DNA of 64,000 nucleotides, from contig JANXBX010000006.1 of the NCBI GenBank assembly GCA_025060595.1, positions 1 to 64,000 on the forward strand, written 5' to 3'. This DNA is from Synergistota bacterium (GTDB lineage Bacteria > Synergistota > GBS-1). The notes beneath the pieces are model-generated. The model had not been told where the DNA came from, did no database searches, and worked only from the letters and a program-made list of their open reading frames with translations. A program made the position numbers and the translations under genes. Below, in pieces: positions 7,093 to 62,662 of this stretch; the first letter of the stretch is position 1; each line of letters begins with the position of its first letter.

Positions 7093-7739
7093 CACGAACC
7101 TCCCTCCTGAGCCCTTCCCAAGATAAGGCTCTCAAGATAAGCTACTCTTCTTTCAAGCTCCCTTACTCTTGAGCTTAAAGATGCATAAGCCACCCTTTCT
7201 TTGTTTATTTTGACTACCATCCCTGGGACTCCTACAACCGTACTTTCAGGAGGAACATCCTTAAGGACAACGCTTCCCGCACCAATACGAGAGTTTCTGC
7301 CTATCCTTATGTTTCCTAAAATCTTAGCTCCAGCACCTATAACCACGCCATCATCAATTGTTGGGTGTCTCTTTCCTTTTTCCTTTCCAGTTCCTCCAAG
7401 AGTAACACCATGATAAATAGTAACGTTATCCCCTATCTCAGCGGTCTCACCTATTACAACTCCCATTCCATGATCGATGAAAAACCCTTTACCGATCTTC
7501 GCGCCTGGATGAATCTCTATACCCGTTAAGAAGCGAACAATATGAGAAAGCAACCTAGGAAGCAGAGGGATTTTAAACCTACTATGAAGTACATGAATAA
7601 ATCTGTGGCACAGTATAGCATGAAAACCGGGGTAACATAGGAAGGCCTCAAGAAACCCGAGGAAACCCTTGGAAAGGGCAGGATCCCTCTCCCTAATAGC
7701 CTTAAAATCCGCCTTTATAGCTTCGACAAGGTCACGCAC
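7092..7739 (-). CDS. cysE: Serine O-acetyltransferase
   Basis: Makes O-acetylserine from serine and acetyl-CoA, the first step of cysteine synthesis. The helical N-terminal half ends in [19 protein letters not shown], followed by the left-handed beta-helix of hexapeptide repeats ([41 protein letters not shown]) and the [11 protein letters not shown] tail. 215 residues. The start appears to be GTG at 7737-7739; no ATG is available in frame. First gene of cysE-cysK. Confidence 0.93.
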
Positions 7740-7840
7740 CCCATGGTATAAAAAACACCTCCCTTAACAGTCAAAGTTGCTTCCATTTTATAGTCACATG
7801 TAAAATCTGTCAAGGAGTAAAAGATGCTCACTTTATCAAC

Positions 7841-8809
7841 TTATAACACTTCCTTTAAAACATCGCCATCTATATTTCCGCCACTTATGACAAGGGCAAC
7901 TCTTCTACCTTTAGCATTAAATCTTCCGGAAAGTATGGCCGCTATACCTAGAGAACCTGCCCCCTCAACCAAAAGATGAAGCTTCTTAGCAGCAAAAGCT
8001 ATGGCTTCCTTAATTTCCTCCTCAGAAACTAGGATAAAACCATCTACCTTATCTTTAGAGAACTCAAACATACACTCCTTTATACTACCCCAGGTCCCCT
8101 CAGAAAGGCTAGGCTTGTACTCCACGTCGACAAGCTTCCCCTCTTTCCAGGAGTAATACCATGGTGGAGAAGCTTCGCTCTGAATCCCATATATCTTAAT
8201 ATCGGGATTTATCGCCTTCACTATCGTAGCCATACCTAGCATCAACCCCCCCGAACCCGCAGGAACCAAGATCGCATCGATGTCTGGATTTTCTTTAACT
8301 ATCTCGTAACCAACTGTTCCTGCCCCAGCCATAACCAACTTATGCTCACCCGGTGGAATAAAGAGCAGCTTGCTCTCCTTAGATATCCTCTCTGCCTCCT
8401 CGAAAGCCGCATCATAACCACAACCATGCTCTACAAGCTCTATCCAATCACCACCAAACATCCTTATAGCTTCCTTCTTCGTTACCGGACAATCCTTTGG
8501 TACAACTATTACGCTCTTCACTCTAAGCTCACGCGAAGCTATAGCTACACCTTGAGCATGATTACCGCTTGAACAGGTGACCACTCCCTTCCTCTTCATC
8601 TCTTCAGGTAAGTTAAACATTACATTTAGGGCTCCCCTTATCTTAAAGCTTCTACAAACTTGAAGGTTCTCAAGTTTCAAAAATATGTCTCCACCTGAAA
8701 GCAAGCTTAAAGCTTCGCTTCTCTCAAGAGGTGTTTCCAAAACCTTACCTTTAAGAAATCTATAAGCCTTCAAAACATCTTGCGGTTTAACACTAATGTC
8801 ACAGTTCAT
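7841..8809 (-). CDS. Threonine/serine dehydratase, short catabolic type
   Basis: PLP-dependent deaminase converting threonine to 2-oxobutyrate (or serine to pyruvate). The PLP lysine lies in SFKIRGAL (about Lys56), with CSSGNHAQGVA and the PAGSGGLMLG phosphate loop. At 322 residues it lacks the C-terminal ACT-like domain of biosynthetic IlvA, so it resembles the catabolic TdcB form. It is divergent from the branched-chain amino acid importer, consistent with a role in amino acid breakdown, though supply of 2-oxobutyrate for isoleucine cannot be excluded. Confidence 0.87.
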   Translation of the reverse strand: MNCDISVKPQDVLKAYRFLKGKVLETPLERSEALSLLSGGDIFLKLENLQVCRSFKIRGALNVMFNLPEEMKRKGVVTCSSGNHAQGVAIASRELRVKSVIVVPKDCPVTKKEAIRMFGGDWIELVEHGCGYDAAFEEAERISKESKLLFIPPGEHKLVMAGAGTVGYEIVKENPDIDAILVPAGSGGLMLGMATIVKAINPDIKIYGIQSEASPPWYYSWKEGKLVDVEYKPSLSEGTWGSIKECMFEFSKDKVDGFILVSEEEIKEAIAFAAKKLHLLVEGAGSLGIAAILSGRFNAKGRRVALVISGGNIDGDVLKEVL

Positions 8810-14564: not shown

Positions 14565-15599
14565 ATGAAATATTTGATGCTTATTTTAGCCCTTTCATTG
14601 ATATTCCTACCTATTTCTGAAGCTAAGGAAATCGAATTAATAGGAGCAGGAGCCACATTCCCCTATCCTTTGTATTCGAAGCTTTTTTCCGTTTATCACA
14701 AGGAAACAGGAGTTAAAGTAAACTACCAAGCGATAGGCTCTGGAGGAGGAATAAGACAGCTCATCAACAAAACCGTAGATTTTGGAGCCACTGACTCTCC
14801 ACTAACGGAGGAAGAGCTTAAGGAAGCAGGATCCCCTATAGTTCACATACCAACCTGTTTAGGAGCACTCGTTTTATCCTACAATCTTCCTGGAAACCCG
14901 AAGATAAACCTAAATGGAAAAGTTTTGGCTGACATATACCTAGGAAAGATCAAAAGGTGGAACGACCCTGAAATAGCCAAGCTTAATCCCGGAGTTAACC
15001 TTCCCAATATGAATATTACAGTAGTCTATAGATCCGATGGGAGCGGAAGCACTTACATATTAAGCCAATATTTAAGTAAAATAAGCAGCGAATGGAAAGA
15101 AAAGGTTGGCGTTGGAAAATCCCTTAAGTGGCCAACAGGAATCGGAGGAAAGGGAAATCCTGGAGTGGCTGGGCTTATAAGACAAATTCCTGGCAGTATA
15201 GGCTATATAGAGTTTGTATACGCCCTTCAAAACAAAATGACTTATGCTTCCATAGAAAATAGGCATGGGAAATTTATCGAACCCTCTGTTGAAACCATCA
15301 CAGCCTCCGCAAACGTGGACATACCTGAAAGCACTATCGTTGATTTAACCGACACAAGCTCACCAAACGGATATCCGCTAAGCAGTTTTACATGGATTAT
15401 AGTATATAAAGAACAAAACTATGAAGGAAGGTCTATTGAGAAAGCAAATGAACTTGTCAAGCTTCTATGGTGGATAATACATGATGGACAGAAATACGCT
15501 GCCGAGCTCTCCTATTCCCCTTTACCGCAAAAAGCCATTGAAGCAGCAGAAAAGGTCATAAAATCTATAACCTATAACGGGCAATCTCTGCTTAAATAA
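14565..15599 (+). CDS. pstS: Phosphate ABC transporter substrate-binding protein PstS
   Basis: High-affinity phosphate-binding receptor. A signal peptide (KYLMLILALSLIFLPISEA) precedes the mature start IELIGAGATFPYPLYSKLF. Phosphate-ligand motifs GSGGGIRQL, DFGATDSPL and YRSDGSGSTYILS are intact. The ATG at 14565 follows a GGGAGGAG site by nine bases; an in-frame TTG upstream would lie before that site and is unlikely. 344 residues. No pstCAB or phoU is adjacent, so this is an orphan receptor; its partners must be elsewhere. The 3' end overlaps the glycerate kinase gene by 8 bp tail to tail. Confidence 0.92.
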   Translation: MKYLMLILALSLIFLPISEAKEIELIGAGATFPYPLYSKLFSVYHKETGVKVNYQAIGSGGGIRQLINKTVDFGATDSPLTEEELKEAGSPIVHIPTCLGALVLSYNLPGNPKINLNGKVLADIYLGKIKRWNDPEIAKLNPGVNLPNMNITVVYRSDGSGSTYILSQYLSKISSEWKEKVGVGKSLKWPTGIGGKGNPGVAGLIRQIPGSIGYIEFVYALQNKMTYASIENRHGKFIEPSVETITASANVDIPESTIVDLTDTSSPNGYPLSSFTWIIVYKEQNYEGRSIEKANELVKLLWWIIHDGQKYAAELSYSPLPQKAIEAAEKVIKSITYNGQSLLK

Positions 15600-16869
15600 C
15601 TGCTCCTATTATAATATCGTTTACATTCGTCCCAGTGGGACCAGTAATCACCAAATCTCCACTAGCCTTCAAGGCATTATAGGAATCGTTATCTGAAAGC
15701 GCTTTCTCTGGATCAACCCCAGAGGAAAGCATCCTATAAAAGCTTTTCCCATCCACTATTCCTCCGGCAGCATCGGTGGGACCATCGGTCCCATCGGTGC
15801 CAACGGAAACTAAAGCCACGTTACTCTCTCCCTTGATGGCTATAGCTACTGAAAGGGCAAGCTCCTGAGCTCTTCCTCCCTTACCGCTTCCCTTAACGTG
15901 AACTACAGGCTCCCCACCTAAAACTATCATGCAAGGAGGAGATATAGGATTAGAGGATCTTTTGATCTCCTTAAGGATCTCAGCTATAAATCTACCTGCC
16001 TCAGAAGCCTCGCAATTAAGGGTTGAGGTTAAAAAGAGAGTCTTATATCCTAGTTCCTTAGCCTTATCCATAGCGTATTTACAGGCTAGACTAACACTAC
16101 CTATTATCACACTCCTAACGTTATTAATTTCCTTAGGTGTATCTGGAATCTCACCCCTTGCTCCTCTTTCAATTATCTCCATAACAGCCGATGGCATCTT
16201 ATCCATCAAGGAGTACTTATCTATGACCTTTAAAGCATCTTTATAAGTAGTCTCATCAGGATAAGCCGGACCAGAGGCTATCGAATCAAGTCTATCACCA
16301 AGAACATCTGAGAGAATAAGAGAATAGACAAAAGCAGGATAAACAGCTTGGGCAAACCTTCCACCCTTTACCCTCGATATGTGCTTTCTAACGGTATTCA
16401 TCTCTACTATATCAGCTCCTGACTTCAAAAGGAGCTCATTAACCTTCTTCAAGTCCTCAAGGCTAACCCCTTCCATGGGAAGCTCAAAGAGAGCGGAACC
16501 TCCACCAGAAACAAGGAACAACAGATTATCACCTTCTTTTAATTCACCTGCCAGCCTCAAAGCCTTCTCAGTAGACAAAAGGGTATTTTCGTCAGGAATC
16601 GGATGTCCCGCCTCGTAAACTTCTAGGCCTTCTATATCCCCAAGAGAGTGCTTATATTTAGTTATAACTATCCCTCTTTTAACCTTATCTTTAAGCTTTT
16701 CCTTAGCGGCCTTAGCCATCCTCCAAGCAGCCTTACCTATAGCAACTAAATATAAATTATCAAGCCTATCTATCCTTTCCCTCTCTATAGCTTCTTCCAC
16801 CGCCCTATCGGGAAGAACCCTCCGAACGGCAAAGTCCACAACCTCAAGAAGATCCTCCCTTAAACCCAT
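15592..16869 (-). CDS. Glycerate 2-kinase (MOFRL family)
   Basis: Phosphorylates glycerate, in this family normally giving 2-phosphoglycerate. The N-terminal half has YLVAIGKAAWRMAKAA and LFLVSGGGSALFELP; the C-terminal MOFRL domain has VLGGEPVVHVKGSGKGGRAQELAL and SVGTDGTDGPTDAAGG. The ATG at 16869 is preceded by GAGAGGTG; the GTG nine bases earlier falls inside that site. 425 residues. It could take glycerate from serine or sugar-acid breakdown. Confidence 0.92.
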   Translation of the reverse strand: MGLREDLLEVVDFAVRRVLPDRAVEEAIERERIDRLDNLYLVAIGKAAWRMAKAAKEKLKDKVKRGIVITKYKHSLGDIEGLEVYEAGHPIPDENTLLSTEKALRLAGELKEGDNLLFLVSGGGSALFELPMEGVSLEDLKKVNELLLKSGADIVEMNTVRKHISRVKGGRFAQAVYPAFVYSLILSDVLGDRLDSIASGPAYPDETTYKDALKVIDKYSLMDKMPSAVMEIIERGARGEIPDTPKEINNVRSVIIGSVSLACKYAMDKAKELGYKTLFLTSTLNCEASEAGRFIAEILKEIKRSSNPISPPCMIVLGGEPVVHVKGSGKGGRAQELALSVAIAIKGESNVALVSVGTDGTDGPTDAAGGIVDGKSFYRMLSSGVDPEKALSDNDSYNALKASGDLVITGPTGTNVNDIIIGAVI

Positions 16870-16881
16870 AGAGATCACCTC

Positions 16882-18339
16882 TCAACTGCCTTTAGGCGTT
16901 CTTGACGGTTTACCAAGGTGAAAGCCTTGAGCATATCGCACATTCAACTTCTTTAAAGCTTCAACCATCTCAGCGTTTTCAACATGCTCAGCTATAACCT
17001 CTATCGACATTCCTTTGAAAAACCTAACTATGCCCTCGATTATCATTTTTGCCCTAGAGCTTACAGTAATCTCACGAACGAGATTCCCAGCTATCTTCAC
17101 AAAATATGGATCGAGATACCTAATATAAAGGAAAGAGGAAAAACCGCTTCCAAAGTCATCTATTGCCAACCTTATACCTAACCTAGCAAGTTCCTTTACA
17201 AAGCTTATCACAGCCCCAAGATCTCTTGCAGCTCCCTTCTCCGTGATCTCTATAACCACGCTCCTAGGGTCAACACCATACCTTTCAATAGCGTTAGTTA
17301 AAAATCCGATTGTCTCCGTATTCTCAATCTCCCGAACGGAAAGATTAATAAAGATAAGTTTATCTCTTAATGGATCGACTACTTTCTCAGCAAAGGCATG
17401 TTCGATAATTTTCCTACCTAGATCAAAAATGAGTCCCGTCTTTTCCGCCGTCTCTATAAAAAGAGCAGCAGGAAGAGGTTTACCCTCCCTATGTATGCGA
17501 GCTAAGACCTCATAACCGATGATTTCTCCCGTTCCCAAATCAACAACAGGTTGATAATAGGGAAGGGCAGAAACACCATCGATCTCCTTCAAGGCCTTCT
17601 GCAATAAGACAAAATATTCATGAAAGGCAACAGGAACCTCGAAATCCTCTCTCTTTACATCTTTCGCAAAACAAACCTTACTTCCACCCCTTCGCTTAGC
17701 GCAACTACAAGCAAGCTCTGCCGCAAAAAGAAGATCATCCATCGCCTTCCCATCCTGAGGAAACCGAGCAATTCCAATGCTTCCTGTAACGGAAATTCCC
17801 TCCTCAACCAAAAGCTCTAGCTTCATAGAAGAAACCCTATCTTTAATTATGCTAGCCTTAGAGAATAAAAAGGATGGATCAGAGTTCTTAAAGATAATCC
17901 CAAATTCATCCCCTCCAATACGACCTATGGCAGTAGCATCGCTCATCTCCTCCCTCAAAATGTAAGCCACATTTACCAAAATCATATCTCCCAAAGCATA
18001 TCCATACATATCGTTAATTAAACTTAGGTTATCTAAGTCCAAGTAGAGAAGCCCAAAACCACTACCTACCCTTTTCTCAATCTCCTCAGAAAGCACCTTA
18101 CCAAACCCATGGCGATTCAAAAGCCCTGTAAGAACATCCATCGTTAAATATTTTTCAATTAAACTACGCTCTTTAGCATTTAAAGCATAGTAAAACAAAA
18201 AGTTTAACAAGAGTCGATTTAACTCTTGAAGGAATAGACTTCCCTCCCTCGAAAGGCTAGCATTTCTTAAGAAATCACTTAACAAACGATTTGCAATCTC
18301 TAAATGCAAATTAAGAACTCTATCTTGAGGAATACGCAA
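16882..18339 (-). CDS. GGDEF-EAL protein (cyclic-di-GMP turnover)
   Basis: 485 residues with a helical N-terminus (1-70), a GGDEF domain (about 71-215) with intact IGGDEF, and an EAL domain (about 240-480). No RxxD inhibitory site is seen before GGDEF. The EAL signature reads YEVLARI (Val for Ala), with NLS, IEITE, IDDFGSGFSS, VKIAG, EHVE and YAQGFHLGKP following; the core acidic residues, the lysine and the glutamine are kept, so phosphodiesterase activity is plausible. No membrane segment. It is the last gene of the stressosome-linked operon, supplying the opposing activity to the cyclase upstream. Confidence 0.88.
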   Translation of the reverse strand: MRIPQDRVLNLHLEIANRLLSDFLRNASLSREGSLFLQELNRLLLNFLFYYALNAKERSLIEKYLTMDVLTGLLNRHGFGKVLSEEIEKRVGSGFGLLYLDLDNLSLINDMYGYALGDMILVNVAYILREEMSDATAIGRIGGDEFGIIFKNSDPSFLFSKASIIKDRVSSMKLELLVEEGISVTGSIGIARFPQDGKAMDDLLFAAELACSCAKRRGGSKVCFAKDVKREDFEVPVAFHEYFVLLQKALKEIDGVSALPYYQPVVDLGTGEIIGYEVLARIHREGKPLPAALFIETAEKTGLIFDLGRKIIEHAFAEKVVDPLRDKLIFINLSVREIENTETIGFLTNAIERYGVDPRSVVIEITEKGAARDLGAVISFVKELARLGIRLAIDDFGSGFSSFLYIRYLDPYFVKIAGNLVREITVSSRAKMIIEGIVRFFKGMSIEVIAEHVENAEMVEALKKLNVRYAQGFHLGKPSRTPKGS

Positions 18340-18371
18340 TGCATAAATTATGGCTCCTAACCTGCTAAAAT

Positions 18372-18569
18372 TTAAAAAACCTCTTCTTCTTTTCCCCCAT
18401 CAGTTAAGGATAAAAGCGCTTTCTTCAAAACCTCCGCCTCATCGCTATTTAAATCTCTATTTAAAACATCCCTAAAAATCCTATTAAACCCTAGGACGTA
18501 TTCCCTTTCCAAGAGCTCTAAAATATACCTATTTCTTTCGCTTCCCTTCCAGTTACTTTCCAGACTCAA
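18372..18569 (-). CDS. Small hypothetical protein, 65 residues
   Basis: Not recognised. It is predicted helical and charged, with no membrane segment or cysteine (ERNRYILELLEREYVLGF; EAEVLKKALLSL). It starts at TTG 18567-18569 a few bases after a strong GGGGGGTGA site formed by the end of the upstream cyclase gene, so translation is well supported. It sits between the diguanylate cyclase and the GGDEF-EAL gene, suggesting an adaptor or regulator of one of them. Confidence 0.65.
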   Translation of the reverse strand: MSLESNWKGSERNRYILELLEREYVLGFNRIFRDVLNRDLNSDEAEVLKKALLSLTDGGKEEEVF

Positions 18570-18572
18570 GGC

Positions 18573-19379
18573 TCACCCCCCTAAATCCGAATAAAACAGC
18601 ACCATGTTTTTCCCTCGCCTTTTAGCCTCATACATAGCTATATCAGCAAACCTTATCAATTCATCTAGACTTGAAGGGTTATCATCTGGAAAGGATGAGA
18701 CTCCTATACTTACGGTAATACTAATCTTTTTATTAGTAAATTCACTTTCTGAAATACGCTTTCTTATCCTCTCGAGAGGAACCATTGCCCTCTCCTTATT
18801 AGTTTTCACAAGGAGTATCAGAAACTCTTCCCCACCGTATCTAATCACTGCATCCCCTGATCTAACGCTTCCTCTAATGATATCACTAACCTCACGCAGT
18901 AACCTATCCCCCAGCGGATGTCCATAACTGTCGTTCACGCTCTTAAAATTATCTATGTCAAGCATGGCTAAAACAAATGGCTCTCTAGTTTTATTAGAGG
19001 TTACCCAAGCTCTGGTTAAAACCTTCTCCATGCCGATTCTATTATAAAAGCCGGTAAGCTTATCGATCTCAGCGCTCTCCTTAAGATAAGCAACCAGGGT
19101 ATCAGAGATAACTAAAATTTGCGTTAAAAACTCCGTCGCTCTTTTTATATAAAGCCAAGAAACACAATCTGTATCGCTATTTAAGTTTAAGAGTCTCTTA
19201 AGACTACTGATATGAATGTCTACTATGTTAGTTGCCTCCAGGTTAGAAATATCCAAAAGCTCAATCAAGGTCTCATAGGCCTCATATAAGACCCTTTCAT
19301 CTCCTCCCTCTAAAACATACTTCTCTAAATACCTCTGGTATTCTTCCTCGAAGCCTCGCTTTCCGTTACCCATTTTCAC
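18573..19379 (-). CDS. Diguanylate cyclase with RsbU_N-like partner-binding domain
   Basis: 268 residues. The N-terminal ~100 residues (LYEAYETLIELLDISNLE, VDIHISSLKRLL) resemble the RsbU N-terminal domain that is bound and activated by RsbT in Bacillus; this match is from memory. The C-terminal GGDEF domain has KLTGFYNRIG, DIDNFKSVNDSYGHPLGD and GGEEF, with an RSGD inhibitory site five residues before GGEEF, so it should be an active, product-inhibited cyclase. It follows RsbR, RsbS, RsbT and a phosphatase and overlaps the phosphatase gene by 14 bp, which fits a stressosome output that makes cyclic-di-GMP in place of releasing a sigma factor. Confidence 0.85.
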   Translation of the reverse strand: MKMGNGKRGFEEEYQRYLEKYVLEGGDERVLYEAYETLIELLDISNLEATNIVDIHISSLKRLLNLNSDTDCVSWLYIKRATEFLTQILVISDTLVAYLKESAEIDKLTGFYNRIGMEKVLTRAWVTSNKTREPFVLAMLDIDNFKSVNDSYGHPLGDRLLREVSDIIRGSVRSGDAVIRYGGEEFLILLVKTNKERAMVPLERIRKRISESEFTNKKISITVSIGVSSFPDDNPSSLDELIRFADIAMYEAKRRGKNMVLFYSDLGG

Positions 19380-20331
19380 TCCAACCCCTCTTAACTAAAA
19401 CAACTGTGGCATCATCCTCTTTTACTCCAAACCTCTCTAAAATAAAGCTCGCTAAATCCTCCACCTTGGTTTTAACTATCTTTTCAAAACTTATACTGTC
19501 TAAAAAGCCTCTTTTAACCCCATCAGTGCAAATCACTAAAGCAAAGGTCAAAGGAAGATCCTCCAAGAATATCTTAGGTCTAACAAGAGTCTTACCTAAT
19601 ATACCATTAGTTCGCGTTAAAACCTTTAAGGATGAGGATGTAAAAAGAAAAGAGTTTATATCACCGAAACTTATATAACTTAGCCTTTTCTTATAAAACA
19701 TACCTATAAAAGCTACCCCACCTCGCGTTCCCCGGAAGACCCTTTCAAGACCAAGATATACGCCCCAGATATCAACCTCGGGTATCTCCTCAAGAACCCT
19801 CCTTGCCTCCTCAGCTAAAGCTGCTGCTCCTGGTCCATGACCCAAAACGTCAATAACGCAAACAAAGTATCCCCCTTTCACCCTTTTATAAAAAGCGAAA
19901 TCACCGCTTTTTTCTTCCGAATAGCGAGGCCTTGAAGCGACACCTATATCGAGCAAAAAGTCACCTTCCTCCCCTTGTCTTAAATCTATCTCTGCCTCAA
20001 ACACCATACTTCCATCAGGTTTAATCCTCTCCTTAAAGCTAGTGCTGTATTCCCTCGCAATCTTAAGCCCAACACCCAAACTACCCTTAACAGAGGAATA
20101 TTCAGACCTCATAGCTGAAACAATTACAATCTTATTACCTTCACGCCTAACAGAGATGCTACCACCTTCGGCATATTTGAGAATATTCGTGGCAAGCTCT
20201 CTCGAGATCAAAAGGATAGAAGAAATGATATTATCACTTAAGGAAAGTAAGTTAAGAAACCTCCTTAATCTATACTCTAGTATAAAAAGATCCGCTTCAA
20301 CCCCAATACTAACTCTTATTTCGCCGCTCAA
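19366..20331 (-). CDS. RsbT-like kinase domain fused to PP2C/RsbX-type phosphatase
   Basis: 321 residues. The first ~130 are a GHKL ATPase-like domain (SRELATNILKYA as N-box, LGVGLKIARE as G-box). The rest is a PP2C-type domain with VIDVLGHGPGAAALA, VICTDGV and KEDDATVVL, the acidic metal ligands of SpoIIE/RsbX phosphatases. In Bacillus, RsbX resets the stressosome by dephosphorylating RsbS and RsbR; the same role is inferred here. Fusions of this kind occur next to rsbRST in other genomes. Overlaps both neighbours by 4-14 bp. Confidence 0.85.
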   Translation of the reverse strand: MSGEIRVSIGVEADLFILEYRLRRFLNLLSLSDNIISSILLISRELATNILKYAEGGSISVRREGNKIVIVSAMRSEYSSVKGSLGVGLKIAREYSTSFKERIKPDGSMVFEAEIDLRQGEEGDFLLDIGVASRPRYSEEKSGDFAFYKRVKGGYFVCVIDVLGHGPGAAALAEEARRVLEEIPEVDIWGVYLGLERVFRGTRGGVAFIGMFYKKRLSYISFGDINSFLFTSSSLKVLTRTNGILGKTLVRPKIFLEDLPLTFALVICTDGVKRGFLDSISFEKIVKTKVEDLASFILERFGVKEDDATVVLVKRGWSENG

Positions 20332-20786
20332 ATTCGTCTCTTCCCCTTTTCAACTATAACAACCGTTCCCTTCCCTACTTCCGAAGCTATAAAAAAAGAA
20401 TCCATCAGCCTCTTTATCCCTGAAAGACCCAAGCCGAGGCTTCTTTGAAAGGTCGTATACCCTCTACTTAAAGCTTTCTCAACATCAGGTATACCAGGAC
20501 CCTCATCGTAGGCGACAACCTCCAATATTAATTCATCATCCCGATACTTCGTCCTTGCATATATATACCCTTTCTTAGCGTATCTATATATATTACGAGC
20601 AAGCTCCGAAACGGCTGTTGCTACCTTTGTCACATCAGCAAGAGGAAAACCGCTCTTCTCTGCAAAGCTTTTTATCATCTGTCTTGCCAGATAGATATCA
20701 TTCTCACTCTCTATCCTAACAACAAGCTCATAATCCTCCACCTTTATCTTAACATCCCCAAATCGAACCCTATACTCTTCAAGCAT
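20328..20786 (-). CDS. rsbT: RsbT-type serine/threonine kinase (switch protein)
   Basis: Small GHKL-fold kinase, 152 residues, with AVSELARNIYRYAKKG (N-box) and YDEGPGIPDVEKALSRGYTTF then LGLGLSGIKRLMD (G boxes). In stressosomes RsbT is held by RsbS, phosphorylates RsbR/RsbS on stress and then leaves to bind its output partner. Here the likely partner is the RsbU_N-like cyclase three genes away. About 20 residues longer at the N-terminus than Bacillus RsbT. Confidence 0.88.
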   Translation of the reverse strand: MLEEYRVRFGDVKIKVEDYELVVRIESENDIYLARQMIKSFAEKSGFPLADVTKVATAVSELARNIYRYAKKGYIYARTKYRDDELILEVVAYDEGPGIPDVEKALSRGYTTFQRSLGLGLSGIKRLMDSFFIASEVGKGTVVIVEKGKRRI

Positions 20787-20812
20787 AGCCTATGCTCACC
20801 GACCTATCACTC

Positions 20813-21169
20813 TCAATAGCTCCTACTCAAGACCTCGATAGCCTTATCTAAGCTACTTACAGTAAATATGCTCTTAAAGGATATACCTATCTGAGCAAGG
20901 GTAAGCGCCACGTGCGGCTTAATACCACATAGGGCCATGTAACAACCCATGGCTCTCAACATTAATGAGGTCTCTATAAAAACATAAGACATGTAGCTAT
21001 CTATAACATCTAAAGCGCTAACATCTATAATAACTCCCTTTATATCTCTCTGGCTTATTCTATCAAGGATATCCCTTTGTAGATTATCTACCTCTTTATC
21101 ACTAAGCTCCCTTTGCAAGGGGACAACAAGATAGTCCTTAAAGCCTATTATAGGAGCAATTCCGCTCAT
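20813..21169 (-). CDS. rsbS: RsbS-type STAS-domain stressosome scaffold
   Basis: 118-residue single STAS domain. The phosphorylatable serine is in DVIDSYMSYVF (about Ser58), as in RsbS. The N-terminus PIIGFKDYLVVPLQRELSD matches the first strands of the fold. It forms the core of stressosomes together with RsbR and traps RsbT. Starts 4 bp after rsbR ends. Confidence 0.9.
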   Translation of the reverse strand: MSGIAPIIGFKDYLVVPLQRELSDKEVDNLQRDILDRISQRDIKGVIIDVSALDVIDSYMSYVFIETSLMLRAMGCYMALCGIKPHVALTLAQIGISFKSIFTVSSLDKAIEVLSRSY

Positions 21170-21173
21170 AAGC

Positions 21174-21929
21174 TTATGTCTCCTTCTCAGTACCTTGCCT
21201 AATGGTAGAATCTATCTCTAACTCCTCCATACGCTTTCTCTCCCTCTCCATCTTTCTTATAGCGTATTGAAGAGCGCTCTCCAAATCCCTCTTCACAACC
21301 ACCATACTAAAATCTATATTAAGCTTAACAAGGGTATGCGCTATTTCAGGCTTTACGCCACATAAAACCACATCACCGCCCAAAAGCTTAACAGCCCCAA
21401 ACATCTCTATTAGGAAACCACCTACAAAAGTGTCAATCATTGGAACACCTGTTACATCTATAATAACCACCTCAGCCTTGCTCTCCTCAATCTTTTTAAG
21501 CAATCTTTCCACAAGAGTTTGAGCTCTCTGACTATCAAGAGTTCCTATTAAGGGAACCAGAAGAACATCTTTCCACAAGTGAACGATAGGAGTAGAAAGC
21601 TCAGACAGAACTTCACCTAACTCCTTTATCTTCCTTTCATCTTCCCTTCTCTTCTCAGCCAAAGCCTCTATCAAAACATCGTAAATATCGACAAGAGGAA
21701 AATCGCTTATCTCTGAAGCCATGCTTTTAAGGCCTAAGGAGATCCTTCTTTCCTCAATTAATCCCAAAAGGGCTAAGATTGATGATTTAACCCTCTCCTT
21801 AAAATCCTCCCTACCATAGGTCTCAGCAATGGTAACTAATAACTCTCTCCATGATTCCCATTCCTTCTTGGAAGCCGCTAATCTTTCAGCCAAACTATCA
21901 AGCTTTGAGATTATAACATTCTTCAACAT
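21174..21929 (-). CDS. rsbR: RsbR-type stressosome sensor protein
   Basis: 251 residues: an all-helical N-terminal sensor domain (1-105) and a C-terminal STAS domain (about 115-225) ending in a charged tail. The STAS phosphosite is Thr in MIDTFVGGF (about Thr167); the second site seen in Bacillus RsbRA appears here as Ser in LDSQRAQ. I saw no heme-binding residues or PAS motifs in the sensor domain, and its signal is unknown. First gene of the minus-strand stressosome operon. Confidence 0.88.
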   Translation of the reverse strand: MLKNVIISKLDSLAERLAASKKEWESWRELLVTIAETYGREDFKERVKSSILALLGLIEERRISLGLKSMASEISDFPLVDIYDVLIEALAEKRREDERKIKELGEVLSELSTPIVHLWKDVLLVPLIGTLDSQRAQTLVERLLKKIEESKAEVVIIDVTGVPMIDTFVGGFLIEMFGAVKLLGGDVVLCGVKPEIAHTLVKLNIDFSMVVVKRDLESALQYAIRKMERERKRMEELEIDSTIRQGTEKET

Positions 21930-37763: not shown

Positions 37764-38540
37764 TTATAGCTCTAGAGGCCTGACCTCAATACCCTCTCTA
37801 TCAAAGGCCTCCCTTATCTTCTTGACCAGCTCAACAGCTGTTGGAGTATCACCATGAACACATATGGTATCGAAGCTTAGATTCCTTATAACCGTTCCAT
37901 CTATAGCTACCACTTCTCTATCTTTGACCATACGAACAACTCTCTTAACCACTTCCTCCGGATCCTTTATAACAGCGCCAGGCTTTGCACGAGAAACCAA
38001 TGTCCCATCAGGATTATAGGCTCTATCAGCGAAAACCTCCTCAGCTACCTTAAGCCCCATTCTCCTCCAAACTTCTACCATCTTGCTTCCTGCAAGACCA
38101 ACCAATATTATAGAAGGATCAAACCTCTTAACGGCGTTACCGATAGCCCTTGCAATGCTTTCATCCCCACGAGAAGCCGCATTATTAGCATCGTTATATA
38201 GCTGCCCATGAGGCTTAACATGCCTAAGCTTGCCTCCATTTGCCTTAACAAAAGCATGAAGAGCACCTATCTGATATAAAACGAAGGCTTCCACTTCCTC
38301 AGGCGACATAGATATGGACCTTCTCCCAAAGCCCTGAAGATCTGGATACCCAGGATGAGCCCCAACTCCTACTCCCCTTGATAAAGCCTCCTTAACCGTG
38401 GACTCCATAACCAACGGATCGCCAGCGTGAAAGCCGCAAGCTATGTTCGCGGAAGAAACGTACTTTAAAAGCTCCTCATCATACCCAAGCTTGTACCTTC
38501 CGAAGCTTTCCCCCATATCACAGTTTAGATCCACCTTCAT
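37764..38540 (-). CDS. pxpA: 5-oxoprolinase subunit A (LamB/YcsF family)
   Basis: Subunit of the ATP-dependent 5-oxoprolinase PxpABC, which opens 5-oxoproline to glutamate. VDLNCDMGESFG, SANIACGFHAGDP, GVGVGAHPGYPDLQGFGRR and HVKPHGQLYND are the family hallmarks. The ATG at 38540 overlaps the stop codon of the HD-GYP gene (TGATG) and follows GGGGTGAGGGG. 258 residues. Last gene of the operon, separated from pxpBC by the large HD-GYP gene. Confidence 0.95.
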   Translation of the reverse strand: MKVDLNCDMGESFGRYKLGYDEELLKYVSSANIACGFHAGDPLVMESTVKEALSRGVGVGAHPGYPDLQGFGRRSISMSPEEVEAFVLYQIGALHAFVKANGGKLRHVKPHGQLYNDANNAASRGDESIARAIGNAVKRFDPSIILVGLAGSKMVEVWRRMGLKVAEEVFADRAYNPDGTLVSRAKPGAVIKDPEEVVKRVVRMVKDREVVAIDGTVIRNLSFDTICVHGDTPTAVELVKKIREAFDREGIEVRPLEL

Positions 38541-41500
38541 CACCCCTCACCCCCCTCTATAACCTTTAGGAACTCAGAGGCAAGAATGGGATCGAACTGA
38601 CTCCCTGAGCCTCTCTTTATCTCCTCGATTGCTTCCAACCTTGAGAGGGCCTTCCTATACGGCCTGTCCGAGGTCATAGCATCAAAGGCATCGGCTATGG
38701 CCATTATCCTAGACTCCAAAGGTATCTCGTAACCCTTTAAACCATCAGGATACCCCTTGCCATCCCATCTTTCATGATGCCAGCGAATAAAAAGAGCGAT
38801 CTCCTTAAGAAATGGAACACCCTTAACAAGCTCCTCTCCCAAAACGGAATGCCTCTTAACTATCTCATACTCCTCATCAGTCAACCTCCCAGGCTTATCA
38901 AGTATCCTACCAGGGATACCTATCTTACCTATGTCATGTAGTATACAGGCATATCTCAACCTCTTTCTATCCTTCTCAGAAAAACCTATCTTAAGAGCAA
39001 TGGCATCAGAATACCCCATAACTCTCTCACAATGTCCTCTAGTATATGGATCCTTGTACTCAATGGTTTTAGCTAAGGCCAAGGTAGTAGCAAAAAGGTT
39101 ATCTTCAAGCTCCCTTAAATGAGATACGTTTTCAAGGACTATCCCCATAGATGTGGCAACGGCTTCAAGTAGCCACTTATCTTCTTCTGTAAACGCTCCT
39201 AAGATCTCGCTCTCCAAGTTTAGGATAGCGTAAATCTCCCCTTTAACCCTCACAGGAACAGCAAGCTCGCTTTTAATCCCTTCCAATCCCTCTATATAGC
39301 GTGGATCCTTAGATACATCCTTAACAAGGACACTTTCACCGTATAGAGCAGCCCAACCGGTTATACCTTCGCCTAACTTAACTTTACTAACCCTACCCCA
39401 AACTGGATAGGATCTAACGAGAACAAGCTCCTCTCCCTTAATAAGAAAAATGGTAATCCTTGAATACGCCTCTACGCTCCTTAAGAAATCAATAACTATA
39501 TCGTAAACCTCCTCTTCGCTCAAAGACTGTGAAAGCCTTAAGGAAAGCCTATAAAGAAGATCCATAACCTCGCTCTTCTTTTTAATGGAATTTAAAAACT
39601 CCACCCTATCTAAAGAAGACCTTAGAAGGTTAGTAGCGGTGATTAAAACCCTCTCATCGTTATCAGAAAAGGCATCCCTTTGTGTATCTAAAGCAAAAAG
39701 TATACCCATAACGCTACCATCCTTTTTCAAGGGAACAGCTATAATTGACTTAGCAAGCTCAATATATCTTCTACTTATCCTACTATCTTGGTCAAAGCTT
39801 CCGCTTTTAAAGACCTCCCCAGTAAAGGCAACATAACCTGCCACCGTACTTCTATCAAGATCAATTAATTCCTTAACACCAAGCAGTACACCCGCTTCGC
39901 CCTTTAAAATCGCAACCCCCTTTCCCCAATCTAACTTACGATAAGAAACCCTCTTATAGTTAAGCTTTTCAACTAAGGCTTTGCATATATATTTATAAAG
40001 CTCATCTTCTTCATTGATAGCCATAAGATCCCTTGATATATCAAGAAGAACCTCAAGCCCTTTACTTTGAAGCCTCAGGTCCTCTAAGAGACTCTCTCTT
40101 GCTAAAGCAAGCCCTATTATATTAGCGATAGACTCGAAGAAATCCTCATCATCCTCTGAAAAGTCATTTAATCTAGAGCTTTCTATATTTAATACCCCCT
40201 CGATTCTTTCCCCTAAACGTATGGGAACAGCTAACTCGGAAAGGGTCTCATCAAAGACTTTGACGTAATAATCCACCTCTCTAACATCTGAAACGTTAAG
40301 AACCTTACCCTCACGAAGAGCTTTAGATATAACGCCACCGGTCTCCTCAAGCCTTTTAAAGCTTTCCTCTGGAATTCTATCTTTAACCTTCCCGGCTAAC
40401 AAACTCCAAGCTTGGGTTTTCCTATCGTAAACCGCAACGGTAACATCCACATAATCCCTTTCCTTCTCTATTCTCTCACAAACATCCTTTAAAACTACAC
40501 TTAAAGGTTCAGGGGAGCTCAGCCTCAAGGATAACTCGTAAAGTGTCCTAAATCTCCTAGCCTCATTAAGAGCATCCTTAAATAGCTTTTCCTTCCTTAA
40601 GGCCATGCCTAACTGCCTACCGAAGATGCTCAATATCTCATAATCATCGAAGGAAAGTTCTCTAAAGCTTTCTAAGTTTACAACGCCATATATCTCACCA
40701 TCTCCAAGTATTGGTACAACTATCTCACTTTTAACCCCCTTAAGGACCTCAACGTACCTATGGTCCCTGCTGACATCGGGTATAAAGGCTCCCTTACCAT
40801 ACCTAGCAACCCACCCGCATATCCCTCTGTTTATATCCCAGCCCTCCTCACCGTAATCAAAATCAGATATCTTCCCAGCCGAAGCCACCCTATGTAAACG
40901 CTCCCCCTTCTTAAGGAATATCTCCATACAATCGTATCCAAGACGATCAGACATACTCTCAATAGCTAATCTAACATCTCCTATAACATCCCTGCTTGAG
41001 GCCAAAACCTCAGAAACCTGAGCCAAAACCCCAAGCTTTCTAGCCTTCTCTTTAACGGACTCTAAATACCCAGCGTTAGCCATTGCCACACCCACTATTC
41101 CCGCAAGCATAGAGATTATCTCAAGATCGAGCTTACTTAATCTATCACCCTCTGACGTTATAGATATCACACCATAAGGCTTGGCCTCAAAGCTAATGGG
41201 AACAAATAGCCTACTTTTTCCGCTATCCGAGATAAGAAGGGGCTTTACTTCCCTTAAAACATCCTCCACTACAAAGCCTTCCACACTTATAATCTCCTCA
41301 CCATCGCCTGCCTTTCTGACCAAGATCTTTCCACCATTAGAAGGCTCATAAATCCCTACTATAGAATCTTTATAAAACATCTTGAGATTCTCATATATTT
41401 GAGGATAAGGATCGGAAACCTTGGATAAATCAAGTAGGTTCTCTCCAGCCTTAGCCACCATTCTTAAGAGCTCATTACTTCTTGAAAGCTCCTCTGTAAG

Positions 41501-42697
41501 CCTCTCTAAGGTAGTGGCATATGCCTTAAGTTGAGCATATGCAGCTTCAAGCTCTTCCTTACTTCCCTTAAGCTCTTTATGCACCCTAAGTAAATCAGCG
41601 TAAGCCCTTTCAAGCTCCCTTTTATGAGTATCAAGAGAGAATCCAACGATGTTAAATTTATCAACCAGCTCATCTAAGTATCTTTCTCCAACCTTCTCTA
41701 TCCTGTAATCATAGCTTCCCCTTATAAGGCTATCGAAGCCATCGCTTAAAGATCTTAAGAAGGAGTAAAAACCTTTTCTCATATAGCGATTTATTAATAA
41801 AAGGGATAAGGCAAGCAGAGCTATACCTATTAAAACAAGCCTAAGAATAAATTGATAAGCTAGACCTTTAGTAAGGTCAGATATATATGTAGTAGAAATT
41901 ATCACTATCTCAGGGAAAATCCCAGGAATAGCAAGCTTAATACCAGCCCTCATTTTCCTTTCCCCTTTAAATTCGTAAGTGAAAACCCCTTTCTCCAGGT
42001 CAAAAAGCCTCTTTATCAAGGGGCTTTCAGCGAGGTCATCCTCATCTAAGGCTTCTTTACCTTTATAAAGAAGGAGCTTCCCATCAGAGGAAAAGACCAG
42101 AATATAGCCTCTTTCACCAATGAAGTGATAATTAAAGCTTTCAATTAGAAAGTCCTTCGCTAAGGAGAGAAACCTTTCCCGACCTTTACCAAACTCTTTC
42201 AAATAAACCAAGGCAAAGTAGTAAAACTCCGGATTCTTGCCCCTCTTCCAAAGGAATAAGGCTCTCTCCCCTGAAGAGTCTAAGAAGAACTCCCTCCCCT
42301 CTGACGAAGAAAGAACATCTGAAACCCTGATACCCTGTGGAAGGTTCCAACTTAAGGCATCGATCCTCTTAACCAGGTAAAATTCCATTCCTTCCACTTT
42401 TATCTTCTCTAATAGAGATCTTAAAACCTTCTCATCTTCAGAAAAGGCATCAAAGGCCTTTAAAAAAGCGAAAGCAAAATTAGAGGCCTGCTCAAAAACA
42501 GACCTTTCATTAATCACTGATAACTGAGAGAGCATAGAGGCAATTCCCTTAACGCTATCGAGATGACTTAAAAGATGAGTTTCAAGAACCTTTTCGAACT
42601 CATACAAGTCTTCAATATGAGAAAAATAGCAAGCCCCCCCTATTACCCCTATGAAAGCTAAAGTTAAAGCTGAGAAAAGCTTAAATCTTAAGGTCAA
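38540..42697 (-). CDS. Membrane-anchored five-GAF HD-GYP phosphodiesterase
   Basis: 1385 residues. A first membrane segment (about 6-25), a ~250-residue outside domain, a second segment (about 283-302), a HAMP-like region and coiled coil (to about 410), then five GAF domains marked by the repeating signatures LFVPISF, IVVPILGDGEIYGVVNLES, LAVPIRL, IAVPLKK and LAVPVRVKGEIYAILNLES. The C-terminal HD-GYP domain has HDIGKIGIP, HHERWDGKGYPDG and ADAFDAMTSDRPYR, all metal and substrate residues intact, so it should degrade cyclic-di-GMP. It overlaps pxpC by 4 bp and shares its stop with the pxpA start, so it is translated with 5-oxoprolinase. Confidence 0.92.
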   Translation of the reverse strand: MTLRFKLFSALTLAFIGVIGGACYFSHIEDLYEFEKVLETHLLSHLDSVKGIASMLSQLSVINERSVFEQASNFAFAFLKAFDAFSEDEKVLRSLLEKIKVEGMEFYLVKRIDALSWNLPQGIRVSDVLSSSEGREFFLDSSGERALFLWKRGKNPEFYYFALVYLKEFGKGRERFLSLAKDFLIESFNYHFIGERGYILVFSSDGKLLLYKGKEALDEDDLAESPLIKRLFDLEKGVFTYEFKGERKMRAGIKLAIPGIFPEIVIISTTYISDLTKGLAYQFILRLVLIGIALLALSLLLINRYMRKGFYSFLRSLSDGFDSLIRGSYDYRIEKVGERYLDELVDKFNIVGFSLDTHKRELERAYADLLRVHKELKGSKEELEAAYAQLKAYATTLERLTEELSRSNELLRMVAKAGENLLDLSKVSDPYPQIYENLKMFYKDSIVGIYEPSNGGKILVRKAGDGEEIISVEGFVVEDVLREVKPLLISDSGKSRLFVPISFEAKPYGVISITSEGDRLSKLDLEIISMLAGIVGVAMANAGYLESVKEKARKLGVLAQVSEVLASSRDVIGDVRLAIESMSDRLGYDCMEIFLKKGERLHRVASAGKISDFDYGEEGWDINRGICGWVARYGKGAFIPDVSRDHRYVEVLKGVKSEIVVPILGDGEIYGVVNLESFRELSFDDYEILSIFGRQLGMALRKEKLFKDALNEARRFRTLYELSLRLSSPEPLSVVLKDVCERIEKERDYVDVTVAVYDRKTQAWSLLAGKVKDRIPEESFKRLEETGGVISKALREGKVLNVSDVREVDYYVKVFDETLSELAVPIRLGERIEGVLNIESSRLNDFSEDDEDFFESIANIIGLALARESLLEDLRLQSKGLEVLLDISRDLMAINEEDELYKYICKALVEKLNYKRVSYRKLDWGKGVAILKGEAGVLLGVKELIDLDRSTVAGYVAFTGEVFKSGSFDQDSRISRRYIELAKSIIAVPLKKDGSVMGILFALDTQRDAFSDNDERVLITATNLLRSSLDRVEFLNSIKKKSEVMDLLYRLSLRLSQSLSEEEVYDIVIDFLRSVEAYSRITIFLIKGEELVLVRSYPVWGRVSKVKLGEGITGWAALYGESVLVKDVSKDPRYIEGLEGIKSELAVPVRVKGEIYAILNLESEILGAFTEEDKWLLEAVATSMGIVLENVSHLRELEDNLFATTLALAKTIEYKDPYTRGHCERVMGYSDAIALKIGFSEKDRKRLRYACILHDIGKIGIPGRILDKPGRLTDEEYEIVKRHSVLGEELVKGVPFLKEIALFIRWHHERWDGKGYPDGLKGYEIPLESRIMAIADAFDAMTSDRPYRKALSRLEAIEEIKRGSGSQFDPILASEFLKVIEGGEG

Positions 42698-43704
42698 ATC
42701 TCCTCCACCTCTACAATGAATTCCTCTCCGTTTACCTTTATTCTATAAGAGACCTTGGATCTTCCCTCGAAATTCACATAAAATAGCCTCTTTTCGAAAT
42801 CTAAAAGCTCCTCTATAGCCTCTTCAAGAGATATCTCCTTGAATCGAACCTTATTTCCCGGAATAGCCTGTGCAAGTAAAGGTATATCAGTAGAGATAAC
42901 GGTGGCTATTTTAGGATAGCCGCCCACAGCTTGCCTATCCTTAAGAAGAACTATAGGCTTTCCATCCTTTGGAACCTGAACGCTTCCTAAAGCTATTCCA
43001 TCAGATATGATCTCCGCTCCCTTTTCGCTATGCTTTAAAGGCTCTCCATCGAGCCTGTAACCCATCCTATCAGAGGCATCCGTAATAAGCCACTCTTGTG
43101 AAAGGAAGCTTTCGCGCGCCTGTGGAATAAAGTGGTCATCCTCAGGCCCCATGATCACCCTTAAAGTAGGATGATCAGAATAAGGAGGAAGCAATTCTCT
43201 TGGAAACCTCCTACCTACTACAGACTTATCTAGAGGAAGTCCAACAAAGAACTTATCCCCATCCCGCAATGCTCTTCCCCCAAGACCACCTATTTGAGCT
43301 CTTACATCTGTGGACTTGCTTCCCATAACCTTTTCAACGAATATCCCCCCTTGAAAAGCTATGTAAGCACGAGCCCCCCATCTTCTCCCAGAGAAGGAGA
43401 GAACGCTCCCCTTTCTAACATATAGGCTTTCCCATGTAGAGATAGGGTAATTATCCAGGGTAGGACCAAGGTCGCCACCCGTTATAGCCATGATTACATC
43501 ATCATTAAAGACTAAGGTTGGACCCATGAGTGTAACCTCAAGACAAGCCTCGTTCTGAGGATTTCCCACCAAGATGTTAGCGGCCCTTAAGGCAAACTCA
43601 TCCATCGCTCCAGCGGTATTTATTCCCTGGGCTTGATATCCAAACCTACCCAAATCCTGAATCGTAGTTAGCATACCAGCCTTTATAACCTCAACCGCAG
43701 GCAT
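42694..43704 (-). CDS. pxpC: 5-oxoprolinase subunit C (KipA family)
   Basis: 336 residues. AGMLTTIQDLGRFGYQAQGI, ANILVGNPQNEACLEVTLMG and YPKIATVISTDIPLLAQA are typical of biotin-dependent-carboxylase-like KipA/PxpC proteins. Acts with PxpA and PxpB. The family is also called a KipI antagonist in Bacillus, but the full pxpABC set here favours 5-oxoprolinase. A short C-terminal extension (YRIKVNGEEFIVEVEEI) looks like the start of a biotinyl-like strand without the lysine motif. Confidence 0.92.
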   Translation of the reverse strand: MPAVEVIKAGMLTTIQDLGRFGYQAQGINTAGAMDEFALRAANILVGNPQNEACLEVTLMGPTLVFNDDVIMAITGGDLGPTLDNYPISTWESLYVRKGSVLSFSGRRWGARAYIAFQGGIFVEKVMGSKSTDVRAQIGGLGGRALRDGDKFFVGLPLDKSVVGRRFPRELLPPYSDHPTLRVIMGPEDDHFIPQARESFLSQEWLITDASDRMGYRLDGEPLKHSEKGAEIISDGIALGSVQVPKDGKPIVLLKDRQAVGGYPKIATVISTDIPLLAQAIPGNKVRFKEISLEEAIEELLDFEKRLFYVNFEGRSKVSYRIKVNGEEFIVEVEEI

Positions 43705-47467: not shown

Positions 47468-48205
47468 ATGAGGATTGGGTTAGAGCCCCTTTTTCCAAGG
47501 AAGGGTTCTCTCCTCGAAGAGGTACAAAAGAGACTTGCTGAAAACATCGAACGACTAAGCAGCATGTTGAGGATAAACAGAGCGAAAGATGATGCAGCAG
47601 GTCTCGCTATCTCAGAGAGCTTAAGAGGTCAAATAGTTGAAACCATCCAAGGGATAAGAAACCTCCAGGATAGGATATCAAGAATTCAAGTTGCAGATCA
47701 AGCGCTTGGTTCTCAGAGTGGAATAATCGATAGAATGAGGGAGCTTGCAGTTCAAGCGACAAACGCTACACTATCGGAGGAGGACAGAACAGCCATAGAA
47801 AGGGAGTTCTCTCAACTTAGGGAAGAAATAAATAGAATAGCAGAAAAGACTACATTTAACGAGCAACCTGTTATAGGAGATATGACTGCAGAGAGGCTTG
47901 GCCTATCTAATGTAAGATTAGGTGATGAAACCACGCTAAGGACACTAGATAGGGCTAAAGAAGTAATAACCTCAAGAAGGGCAAATCTTGGAGCGGAAGA
48001 AAGAAGCTTGGCCTCAGAAATAGGAAGACTTGGCGTAGCAGCCATAAATCTAACTGCAGCAGAATCTCTCATAAGAGATAATGATGTGGCTGAAGAGGTC
48101 TCAAGCTTAACCATTAATCAAATACTAGAGGAGCTTAATATAATAATGCTAAACCAGGCAAGAAGAAACTCAAGCAATATCCTAAACTTGCTTAGGGAAG
48201 GTTAA
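47468..48205 (+). CDS. Short flagellin-like protein (D0/D1 domains only)
   Basis: 245 residues. The N-terminal SSMLRINRAKDDAAGLAISE, QDRISRIQVADQAL and MRELAVQATNATLSEEDR, and the C-terminal GAEERSLASEIGRL, NLTAAESLIRDNDVAEEVS and LNQARRNSSNILNLL are clear flagellin. The outer D2/D3 region is missing. The first ~25 residues (GLEPLFPRKGSLLEEVQKRL) depart from the usual RINxNxxALNA start of the D0 helix. No other flagellar gene is near. ATG follows GGGGGTG. It could be a minor filament protein or a divergent paralogue. Confidence 0.85.
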   Translation: MRIGLEPLFPRKGSLLEEVQKRLAENIERLSSMLRINRAKDDAAGLAISESLRGQIVETIQGIRNLQDRISRIQVADQALGSQSGIIDRMRELAVQATNATLSEEDRTAIEREFSQLREEINRIAEKTTFNEQPVIGDMTAERLGLSNVRLGDETTLRTLDRAKEVITSRRANLGAEERSLASEIGRLGVAAINLTAAESLIRDNDVAEEVSSLTINQILEELNIIMLNQARRNSSNILNLLREG

Positions 48206-61524: not shown

Positions 61525-62646
61525 TCAACTCATAATCTCTATAAACTCATCAAAGAGATACTTTGAATCATGAGGGCCTGGGCTTGATTCGGGATGATAT
61601 TGAACAGAAAATAGCGGAAACTTACTATGCTTCATACCCTCAAGAGTACCATCGTTAAGATTCACATGAGTTACCTCCATACCGGTCCCAACTAAAGAAT
61701 CCACATCTACGCAGAAGCCATGATTTTGAGAAGTTATCTCAACTCTACCGCTTATTAAATTCTTTACTGGATGATTAGCTCCCCTATGACCGAATTTGAG
61801 CTTGAAGGTTTTTCCACCCATAGCAAGCCCTATTATCTGATGACCAAGGCATATACCAAAGATAGGTATCTTTCCTATGAGCTCCCTAACCTCAGAAACG
61901 ATCCCCTTTATAGCTGCAGGATCTCCCGGTCCATTTGAAAGAAAAACTCCTGTAGGCCCTAAAAAAAAGACCTCCTCAGCGGAGGTCTTTATAGGAACAA
62001 CCAAAAGCTCACAACCCCTTTTCTCAAGCTCCCTAAGAATATTAAGCTTGACTCCCCCATCATAAACCACAACTTTATATGGTTTATCACTCTCCCTCCA
62101 AGACAAACAACTTAGGCTCTCTACATAAATCCTTTCTCCACCGCTCCAAAAATAAGGCTTCTTAGTAGATATCGGCGTAGCTAAATCTCTTCCGACCATG
62201 CTTGGGAAAGCTTTGAGTCGTTCAAATAGTGATGAAGGATTCAAATCCTCGGTCGAAACTATTCCCTTCATAGCACCATAAAGACGTAACCTTCTTGTCA
62301 AGGCCCTCGTATCTATGCCCTCAACCCCTAAAACTCCAGCTCCCTTTAAATATTCAGCTAAGCTCTTTTTGGACCGCCAGTTACTCGGAAACGGACAATA
62401 CTCCTTAACCAATAACCCCTCAACCTGAATTTGCGATGACTCCACATCCTCCTCATTAATTCCATAGTTACCTATCAACGGGTAAGTCATGGTGACTATT
62501 TGCCCTTTGTAAGAAGGATCGGTTATTATTTCCTGATAACCGGTCATACTGGTATTAAATACCACTTCTCCAATAGCTTCGCCAGGTCCGGTAAATGAAT
62601 AGCCTTCAAAGGCGGTCCCGTCTTCCAAAACCAGGAGAGCCTTCAT
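61525..62646 (-). CDS. carA: Carbamoyl-phosphate synthase small subunit
   Basis: Glutamine amidotransferase subunit. The N-terminal domain has EGYSFTGPGEAIGEVVFNTS; the amidotransferase triad includes GICLGHQIIG (Cys) and QYHPESSPGPHDS (His, Glu). 373 residues from ATG 62646, which follows GAGGAGGTG; the longer frame would run through the T-box terminator and is rejected. It holds a terminator-like hairpin in its coding sequence at 61961-61990. Confidence 0.97.
   Translation of the reverse strand: MKALLVLEDGTAFEGYSFTGPGEAIGEVVFNTSMTGYQEIITDPSYKGQIVTMTYPLIGNYGINEEDVESSQIQVEGLLVKEYCPFPSNWRSKKSLAEYLKGAGVLGVEGIDTRALTRRLRLYGAMKGIVSTEDLNPSSLFERLKAFPSMVGRDLATPISTKKPYFWSGGERIYVESLSCLSWRESDKPYKVVVYDGGVKLNILRELEKRGCELLVVPIKTSAEEVFFLGPTGVFLSNGPGDPAAIKGIVSEVRELIGKIPIFGICLGHQIIGLAMGGKTFKLKFGHRGANHPVKNLISGRVEITSQNHGFCVDVDSLVGTGMEVTHVNLNDGTLEGMKHSKFPLFSVQYHPESSPGPHDSKYLFDEFIEIMS
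61961..61990 (-). terminator. Terminator-like hairpin inside carA
   Basis: On the minus strand AAAGACCTCC and GGAGGTCTTT form a perfect 10-bp stem with a 5-nt loop, followed by TTTTT and more, giving eight Ts in a row. It codes for TSAEEVFFLG in mid-gene. It has every feature of an intrinsic terminator, though ribosomes on carA would normally prevent its folding. Confidence 0.55.
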
Positions 62647-62662
62647 CTTTACACCTCCTCGT

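Follow-up and report, generated by a model that had tools for sequence, protein, structure and literature searches.

The wiring of a stressosome to a diguanylate cyclase is already known from Moorella thermoacetica, whose MtR-MtS-MtT-MtX-MtG module is reportedly the published precedent, attributed to Quin et al. 2012 (Structure 20:350). Modules of the rsbRSTX type with GGDEF, EAL or HD outputs have also been surveyed (PMC9237108, Fig. 3), and in SiaABCD partner-switching proteins control a diguanylate cyclase (PMC7647112). Here we describe an operon on the minus strand, at 16882-21929, of the window, by which we mean the whole stretch of 64,000 nucleotides analysed (positions 1 to 64,000 of contig JANXBX010000006.1 from a Synergistota bacterium, assembly GCA_025060595.1). 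We judge, with a probability of about 80%, that it is a Moorella-type stressosome module with the turnover of cyclic dimeric guanosine monophosphate (c-di-GMP) as its output.

Operon layout and stressosome core

We confirmed all the open reading frames (ORFs) listed for this interval at their coordinates, and neighbouring genes abut, overlap or leave short gaps. The gene order given in the original prediction is RsbR, RsbS, RsbT, an RsbX-like phosphatase, an RsbU_N-GGDEF cyclase, a 65-codon ORF (p65) and a GGDEF-EAL ORF, and the Pfam domain calls agree with it. The features are as follows.

21174..21929, minus strand: RsbR, a helical N-terminal (sensor) region of about 110 residues plus a STAS domain with a conserved Thr (MIDT)
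20813..21169, minus strand: RsbS, a lone STAS domain with phospho-Ser motif VIDS (motif read from sequence)
20328..20786, minus strand: RsbT switch kinase, HATPase_c_2 domain
19366..20331, minus strand: RsbX-like PP2C phosphatase, fused at its N-terminus to a degenerate RsbT-like HATPase domain
18573..19379, minus strand: diguanylate cyclase, an RsbU_N-type domain (about residues 9-107), a long helix and a GGEEF domain with an RxxD I-site
18372..18569, minus strand: p65, most likely the front (N-terminal) half of the GGDEF-EAL protein, split off by a frame change
18371..18379, minus strand: T6A3 run, site of the coding-frame change (T6 part 18374-18379)
18340..18371, minus strand: open, coding-like stretch in the GGDEF-EAL frame, upstream of the assigned TTG start
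16882..18339, minus strand: GGDEF-EAL protein, probable c-di-GMP phosphodiesterase, with GGDEF and EAL domains (Pfam) and EAL motifs

The stressosome core is recognised by adjacent RsbR and RsbS STAS proteins carrying the conserved Thr and Ser, together with an RsbT kinase. RsbR matches STAS (Pfam, E 6e-19) and the RsbR proteins of other stressosomes in the PDB (9e-27), and its AlphaFold2 model (predicted local distance difference test, pLDDT, 88.5) finds the Listeria stressosome 7b0u as top match (E 2e-12 over 254 columns). RsbS likewise matches STAS (E 8e-14) and RsbT matches HATPase_c_2 (E 2e-13), with the N box (ELARN), DEGPG and GLGLSG all intact; in the patch of RsbT that contacts RsbU, the first Arg is retained (ARQ) and the second is replaced by Lys. 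We infer by analogy that RsbR and RsbS assemble into a core in which RsbT is sequestered and from which it is later released.

The fourth gene, which shares 4 bases with rsbT, encodes an RsbX-type PP2C directly downstream of RsbT with conserved metal-site Asp motifs, as expected of an RSTX module; it matches SpoIIE/PP2C (Pfam, E 2e-7) and Moorella MtX (PDB 3zt9, E 1e-14). Its N-terminal HATPase domain is degenerate, the G1 box being gone and the N box retained. This fused form was observed in 12 loci, namely the window and 11 others, and a stand-alone RsbX in 16.

The absence of a sigma factor, RsbV and RsbW claimed at the outset holds within the operon, in which neither rsbW nor sigB is present. 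We extended the check to the whole genome, which is 99% complete, and found no RsbV, because its only two STAS domains are those of RsbR and RsbS in this operon. For RsbW and SigB the claim carries less far, their genome-wide absence being judged from HATPase_c_2 and sigma-70 matches only. A further HATPase_c_2 match, to a CBS-HATPase fusion located beside metabolic genes, is no obvious RsbW; among six proteins with sigma-70 region 2 one is FliA-like and lies within a chemotaxis cluster, and four other sigma-like proteins were left unclassified in the SigB judgement.

The cyclase, its N-terminal domain and the proposed action of RsbT

The cyclase matches GGDEF (Pfam, E 2e-45), its Mg-binding Asp is present, and both the RxxD I-site and GGEEF are invariant in 23 cyclase orthologues. 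The protein lacks a GAF domain, and its RsbU_N-type domain leads straight into GGDEF by way of a predicted helix about 33 residues long. The resemblance of its N-terminus to RsbU_N, which had been noticed from the sequence, is borne out. Pfam RsbU_N (PF08673) matches residues 12-90 over profile positions 1-70 of 75 with E 0.0036. Upon comparing 22 aligned cyclase N-domains with 17 authentic RsbU_N domains, drawn from Bacillus-type RsbU, Moorella-type cyclases and similar proteins, hhalign gave a probability of 90, an E-value of 1.5e-6 and a score of 40.9, which none of 200 column shuffles reached (maximum 23.5; reversed profile 14). Because this score exceeds those of all the shuffles and of the reversed profile, we conclude from profile comparison that the cyclase N-terminus is a diverged RsbU_N domain, past the threshold of Pfam. 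Its model is helical (pLDDT 83). Two residues of RsbU, E24 and Y28, have been implicated in the binding of RsbT (PMC12143880). With positions placed by eye from the hhalign alignment, the cyclase N-domains are always acidic at the equivalent of the first (E28 in the window), and the equivalent of the second is Tyr in the window (Y32) and mostly Phe or Leu in other cyclases.

Several observations weigh against this interpretation of the module. The Pfam match, at 17.9 bits, lies below the curated cut-off of 25.5, so that the profile check proposed with the original prediction yielded a match over the expected region and not a passing score, and no cyclase N-domain shown passes this cut-off singly; 10 of 23 match at E<1, the best at 0.0035. 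A search of the whole genome for RsbU_N at E 0.001 gave no match. When the hhalign comparison is restricted to the three Moorella-type N-domains, the match is weak (E 0.0022, probability 13), the N-domain profile retrieves the RsbU N-domain 1w53 at E 0.81, and a Foldseek search of the N-domain model against the PDB returned nothing significant, with 1w53 unlisted. Additionally, the cyclase need not always depend on RsbT, since in some genomes (L120, L124, L138) it stands without R-S-T-X, and in the EAL domain of the second enzyme the Asp of the KID motif is absent (KIA in the window, Glu in relatives), a replacement that may lower EAL activity.

RsbT most likely acts on the diguanylate cyclase through the RsbU_N-type domain. 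RsbR and RsbS would form the sensory core, holding RsbT; upon a stress signal RsbT would phosphorylate RsbR and RsbS and then be freed, and the RsbX-like phosphatase would reset the core. Freed RsbT would bind the RsbU_N-type domain and, via the helix continuous with GGDEF, alter the dimer geometry and activity of the cyclase, in either direction, and the GGDEF-EAL phosphodiesterase from the same operon, its gene split into p65 and the annotated ORF, would counteract it. This chain from stress through RsbT release to the cyclase is a proposal drawn from the homologues.

The original prediction had released RsbT activate the cyclase, a direction that we find unsupported: a passage of PMC7647112 has Moorella MtT bind MtG and attenuate its activity. 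On that account freed RsbT would inhibit the cyclase, so that c-di-GMP would fall under stress and what is left would be removed by the EAL protein, and the pairing of the cyclase with a probable phosphodiesterase fits this. The basis is, however, a single second-hand report, and MtG has a GAF domain that the window cyclase lacks; we regard inhibition as close to an even bet. Activation, against which the same Moorella report speaks, would follow RsbT on RsbU, where the linker is rigidified and the output domains are dimerised, a mechanism that its authors extend to RsbU_N-GGDEF proteins (PMC12143880), and the direct continuation of the RsbU_N helix into GGDEF in the window cyclase agrees with it; we hold activation to be a serious candidate at somewhat less than even odds. 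PMC12143880 has RsbT control the Moorella cyclase with the direction unstated, and PMC4976288 has that cyclase phosphorylated.

The second enzyme, the frame change and the genomic setting

The GGDEF-EAL protein matches both of its domains strongly (Pfam; GGDEF 6e-29, EAL 2e-57), and the EAL catalytic motifs E, N, E, DD, K, E and Q are all present. The pairing of a cyclase with an EAL protein, which together with a small linker protein was described at first as less familiar, turns out to exist in at least six further genomes. At loci L122, L129, L131, L134, L137 and L140 the gene immediately after the cyclase encodes a GGDEF-EAL protein, and at L157 such a gene lies nearby. Across these orthologues the EAL motifs are retained, and the GGDEF motif is altered in six of seven, being intact in L137 and in the window. 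Since the EAL motifs are kept and GGDEF is degenerate in most orthologues, the second enzyme is probably a phosphodiesterase.

Its N-terminal domain might itself be a very remote RsbU_N, in which case RsbT would control both enzymes and one released kinase would constitute a two-way c-di-GMP switch. Comparison of this domain with RsbU_N by hhalign gave E 0.003 and a score of 24.6, above all 300 shuffles (maximum 20.3), with a probability of 11; against this stand a score of 18.7 for a helical control that is unrelated and a Pfam match to RsbU_N in just one of seven such N-domains (E 0.037). We consider the assignment speculation and control of both enzymes by RsbT improbable.

The 65-residue protein had been taken as a separate linker component. 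The ORF exists, begins at a start codon of its own just past the cyclase stop and shows coding-like codon usage, two features that suit a genuine small protein bridging cyclase and phosphodiesterase. Codon usage, however, points to the p65 frame until the T6 run (18374-18379) is reached and to that of GGDEF-EAL from there on. Upstream of the annotated TTG start this second frame stays open as far as 18402 and is coding-like to the end of p65. The 13 codons ending at the 18340..18371 stretch score 0.52 log2-odds per codon in the GGDEF-EAL frame, compared with a mean of 0.46 for genuine coding sequence and with 1.7% of off-frame stretches reaching 0.52. In the orthologues of the GGDEF-EAL protein a single ORF holds about 140-160 residues ahead of GGDEF, with which the length of the joined window sequence agrees. 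When p65, the extension and the start of the GGDEF-EAL protein are joined, the product matches the N-terminal domain of two of these orthologues, L129/L140 (hhalign E 6e-4, 0 of 300 shuffles). Because the frame switches at the T6 run and the joined piece resembles the L129/L140 domain, p65 is probably the front of the GGDEF-EAL protein and the two ORFs one gene with a frame change. The case is strong, though not conclusive, because the joined sequence has no significant match to the N-domains of the other orthologues; with a plain hidden Markov model of the relatives' N-domains, p65 alone did not rise above shuffles. A separate p65 therefore seems unlikely to us.

The frame change may stem from a sequencing or assembly error, from decay or from slippage. 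Programmed ribosomal or transcriptional slippage, yielding a short N-terminal protein and a full phosphodiesterase, would account for six T followed by AAA exactly where the frame changes; no relative was found with the same run, and other fetched cyclase ORFs are broken too (L118, L141), which suggests assembly errors or decay, so that we rate programmed slippage as a long shot.

Three bases past the GGDEF-EAL stop, on the same strand, begins a glycerate kinase-type gene (DUF4147 and MOFRL; 15592-16878), which because of this position may be co-transcribed with the stressosome operon. Promoter and terminator scans stayed at or below chance level. Rfam found no c-di-GMP riboswitch in the window, its sole match being a T-box leader far from the operon (62681-62941, RF00230, 107.5 bits), directly upstream of a carA-like gene (61525-62682) that is followed by a carB-like gene.

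Nine GGDEF domains were counted in the genome. An ORF of 1385 residues at 38540-42697 shows, by eye and without a family search, several GAF-like stretches and an HD-GYP-like C-terminus, and overlaps by 4 bases at each end with 5-oxoprolinase-subunit-like genes (37764-38543, 42694-43704); this probably places a second c-di-GMP enzyme within a metabolic operon. An ORF at 47468-48205 resembles by eye a short flagellin and, with the FliA-like and chemotaxis genes elsewhere, suggests a motile organism. Two PilZ proteins (C15:34159-35084) lie a few kb from the chemotaxis/fliA cluster, and a flagellar read-out through them is speculative.

Recurrence and comparison with known systems

The phylum to which a relative from Bacillota, G188, belongs was searched with three cyclase N-domains, and 27 of the 399 genomes covered gave a match. 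R-S-T-X stands directly before the cyclase in 22 genomes or loci besides the window, nearly all of them Bacillota. Among 188 genomes searched of the window's own phylum the N-domain occurs in two, the window's and G183; in the cyclase tree the G183 protein is nested within Bacillota, which suggests horizontal transfer. Viral contigs searched with the N-domain gave no match. Moorella thermoacetica was itself recognised, its phosphatase being 100% identical to PDB 3zt9 over 184 residues, with the order R-S-T-X-G and an MtG composed of RsbU_N (6.5e-19), GAF and GGDEF.

Individual loci depart from this arrangement. At L121 an RsbR remnant of 112 residues (7663-8001) directly precedes the cyclase and S, T and X are gone; here the cyclase has outlasted the stressosome genes. 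At L134 (5395-7128) a transposase-like gene interrupts rsbT within an otherwise intact module, and L122 carries a c-di-GMP-I riboswitch (75-144, RF01051, 37.5 bits) at the same locus as its stressosome-cyclase-EAL operon. In other genomes a CBS-HD protein occupies the position after the cyclase in place of GGDEF-EAL; we dropped the assignment of these downstream HD proteins as HD-GYP phosphodiesterases, as Pfam finds only CBS and HD, with no clear GYP motif. The gene directly downstream of the cyclase at L135 (5832-7478; HD_5 at 5e-36, weak GAF and PilZ matches) encodes a probable different phosphodiesterase in the position of GGDEF-EAL.

The Moorella wiring is hence no lone oddity, since R-S-T-X-cyclase operons turn up again in Bacillota and in two of the 188 genomes searched of the window's own phylum. 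In the literature searched we found no description of the family of GAF-less cyclases with a diverged RsbU_N, accompanied by a fused RsbX and followed by an EAL enzyme. A GAF-less cyclase would be a simpler object than MtG for asking whether RsbT controls outputs via a coiled-coil linker and in which direction, and thanks to its recurrent pairing with a phosphodiesterase the sign of the response lends itself to a direct test.

Compared with the known systems, the window shares with Pseudomonas aeruginosa SiaABCD a diguanylate cyclase under partner-switching proteins, whereas there SiaC acts on SiaD and no RsbRST stressosome is involved; to our knowledge SiaABCD has no RsbU_N domain. Bacillus subtilis RsbRST-RsbU-RsbV-RsbW-SigB has the same RsbR, RsbS and RsbT core and, in RsbU_N, the same probable target of RsbT, whereas in the window the output is a cyclase and not a phosphatase, the genome lacks RsbV and the operon lacks rsbW and sigB. 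The surveyed rsbRSTX modules similarly place c-di-GMP enzymes after a minimal RSTX stressosome, some with RsbU_N-like domains in the downstream proteins; in contrast to the window, where the short helical N-domain of RsbR matches no Pfam family, they were gathered by globin-coupled RsbR, in Proteobacteria and others. The closest likeness is to Moorella thermoacetica, in the order R-S-T-X-G, the RsbU_N-bearing GGDEF output and an operon without a sigma factor. In MtG, however, a GAF domain separates RsbU_N from GGDEF, MtX is without the ATPase-like domain at its N-terminus and the stretch read has no EAL gene downstream of MtG, whereas the window joins a GAF-less cyclase to a fused RsbX-like protein and a following EAL gene.

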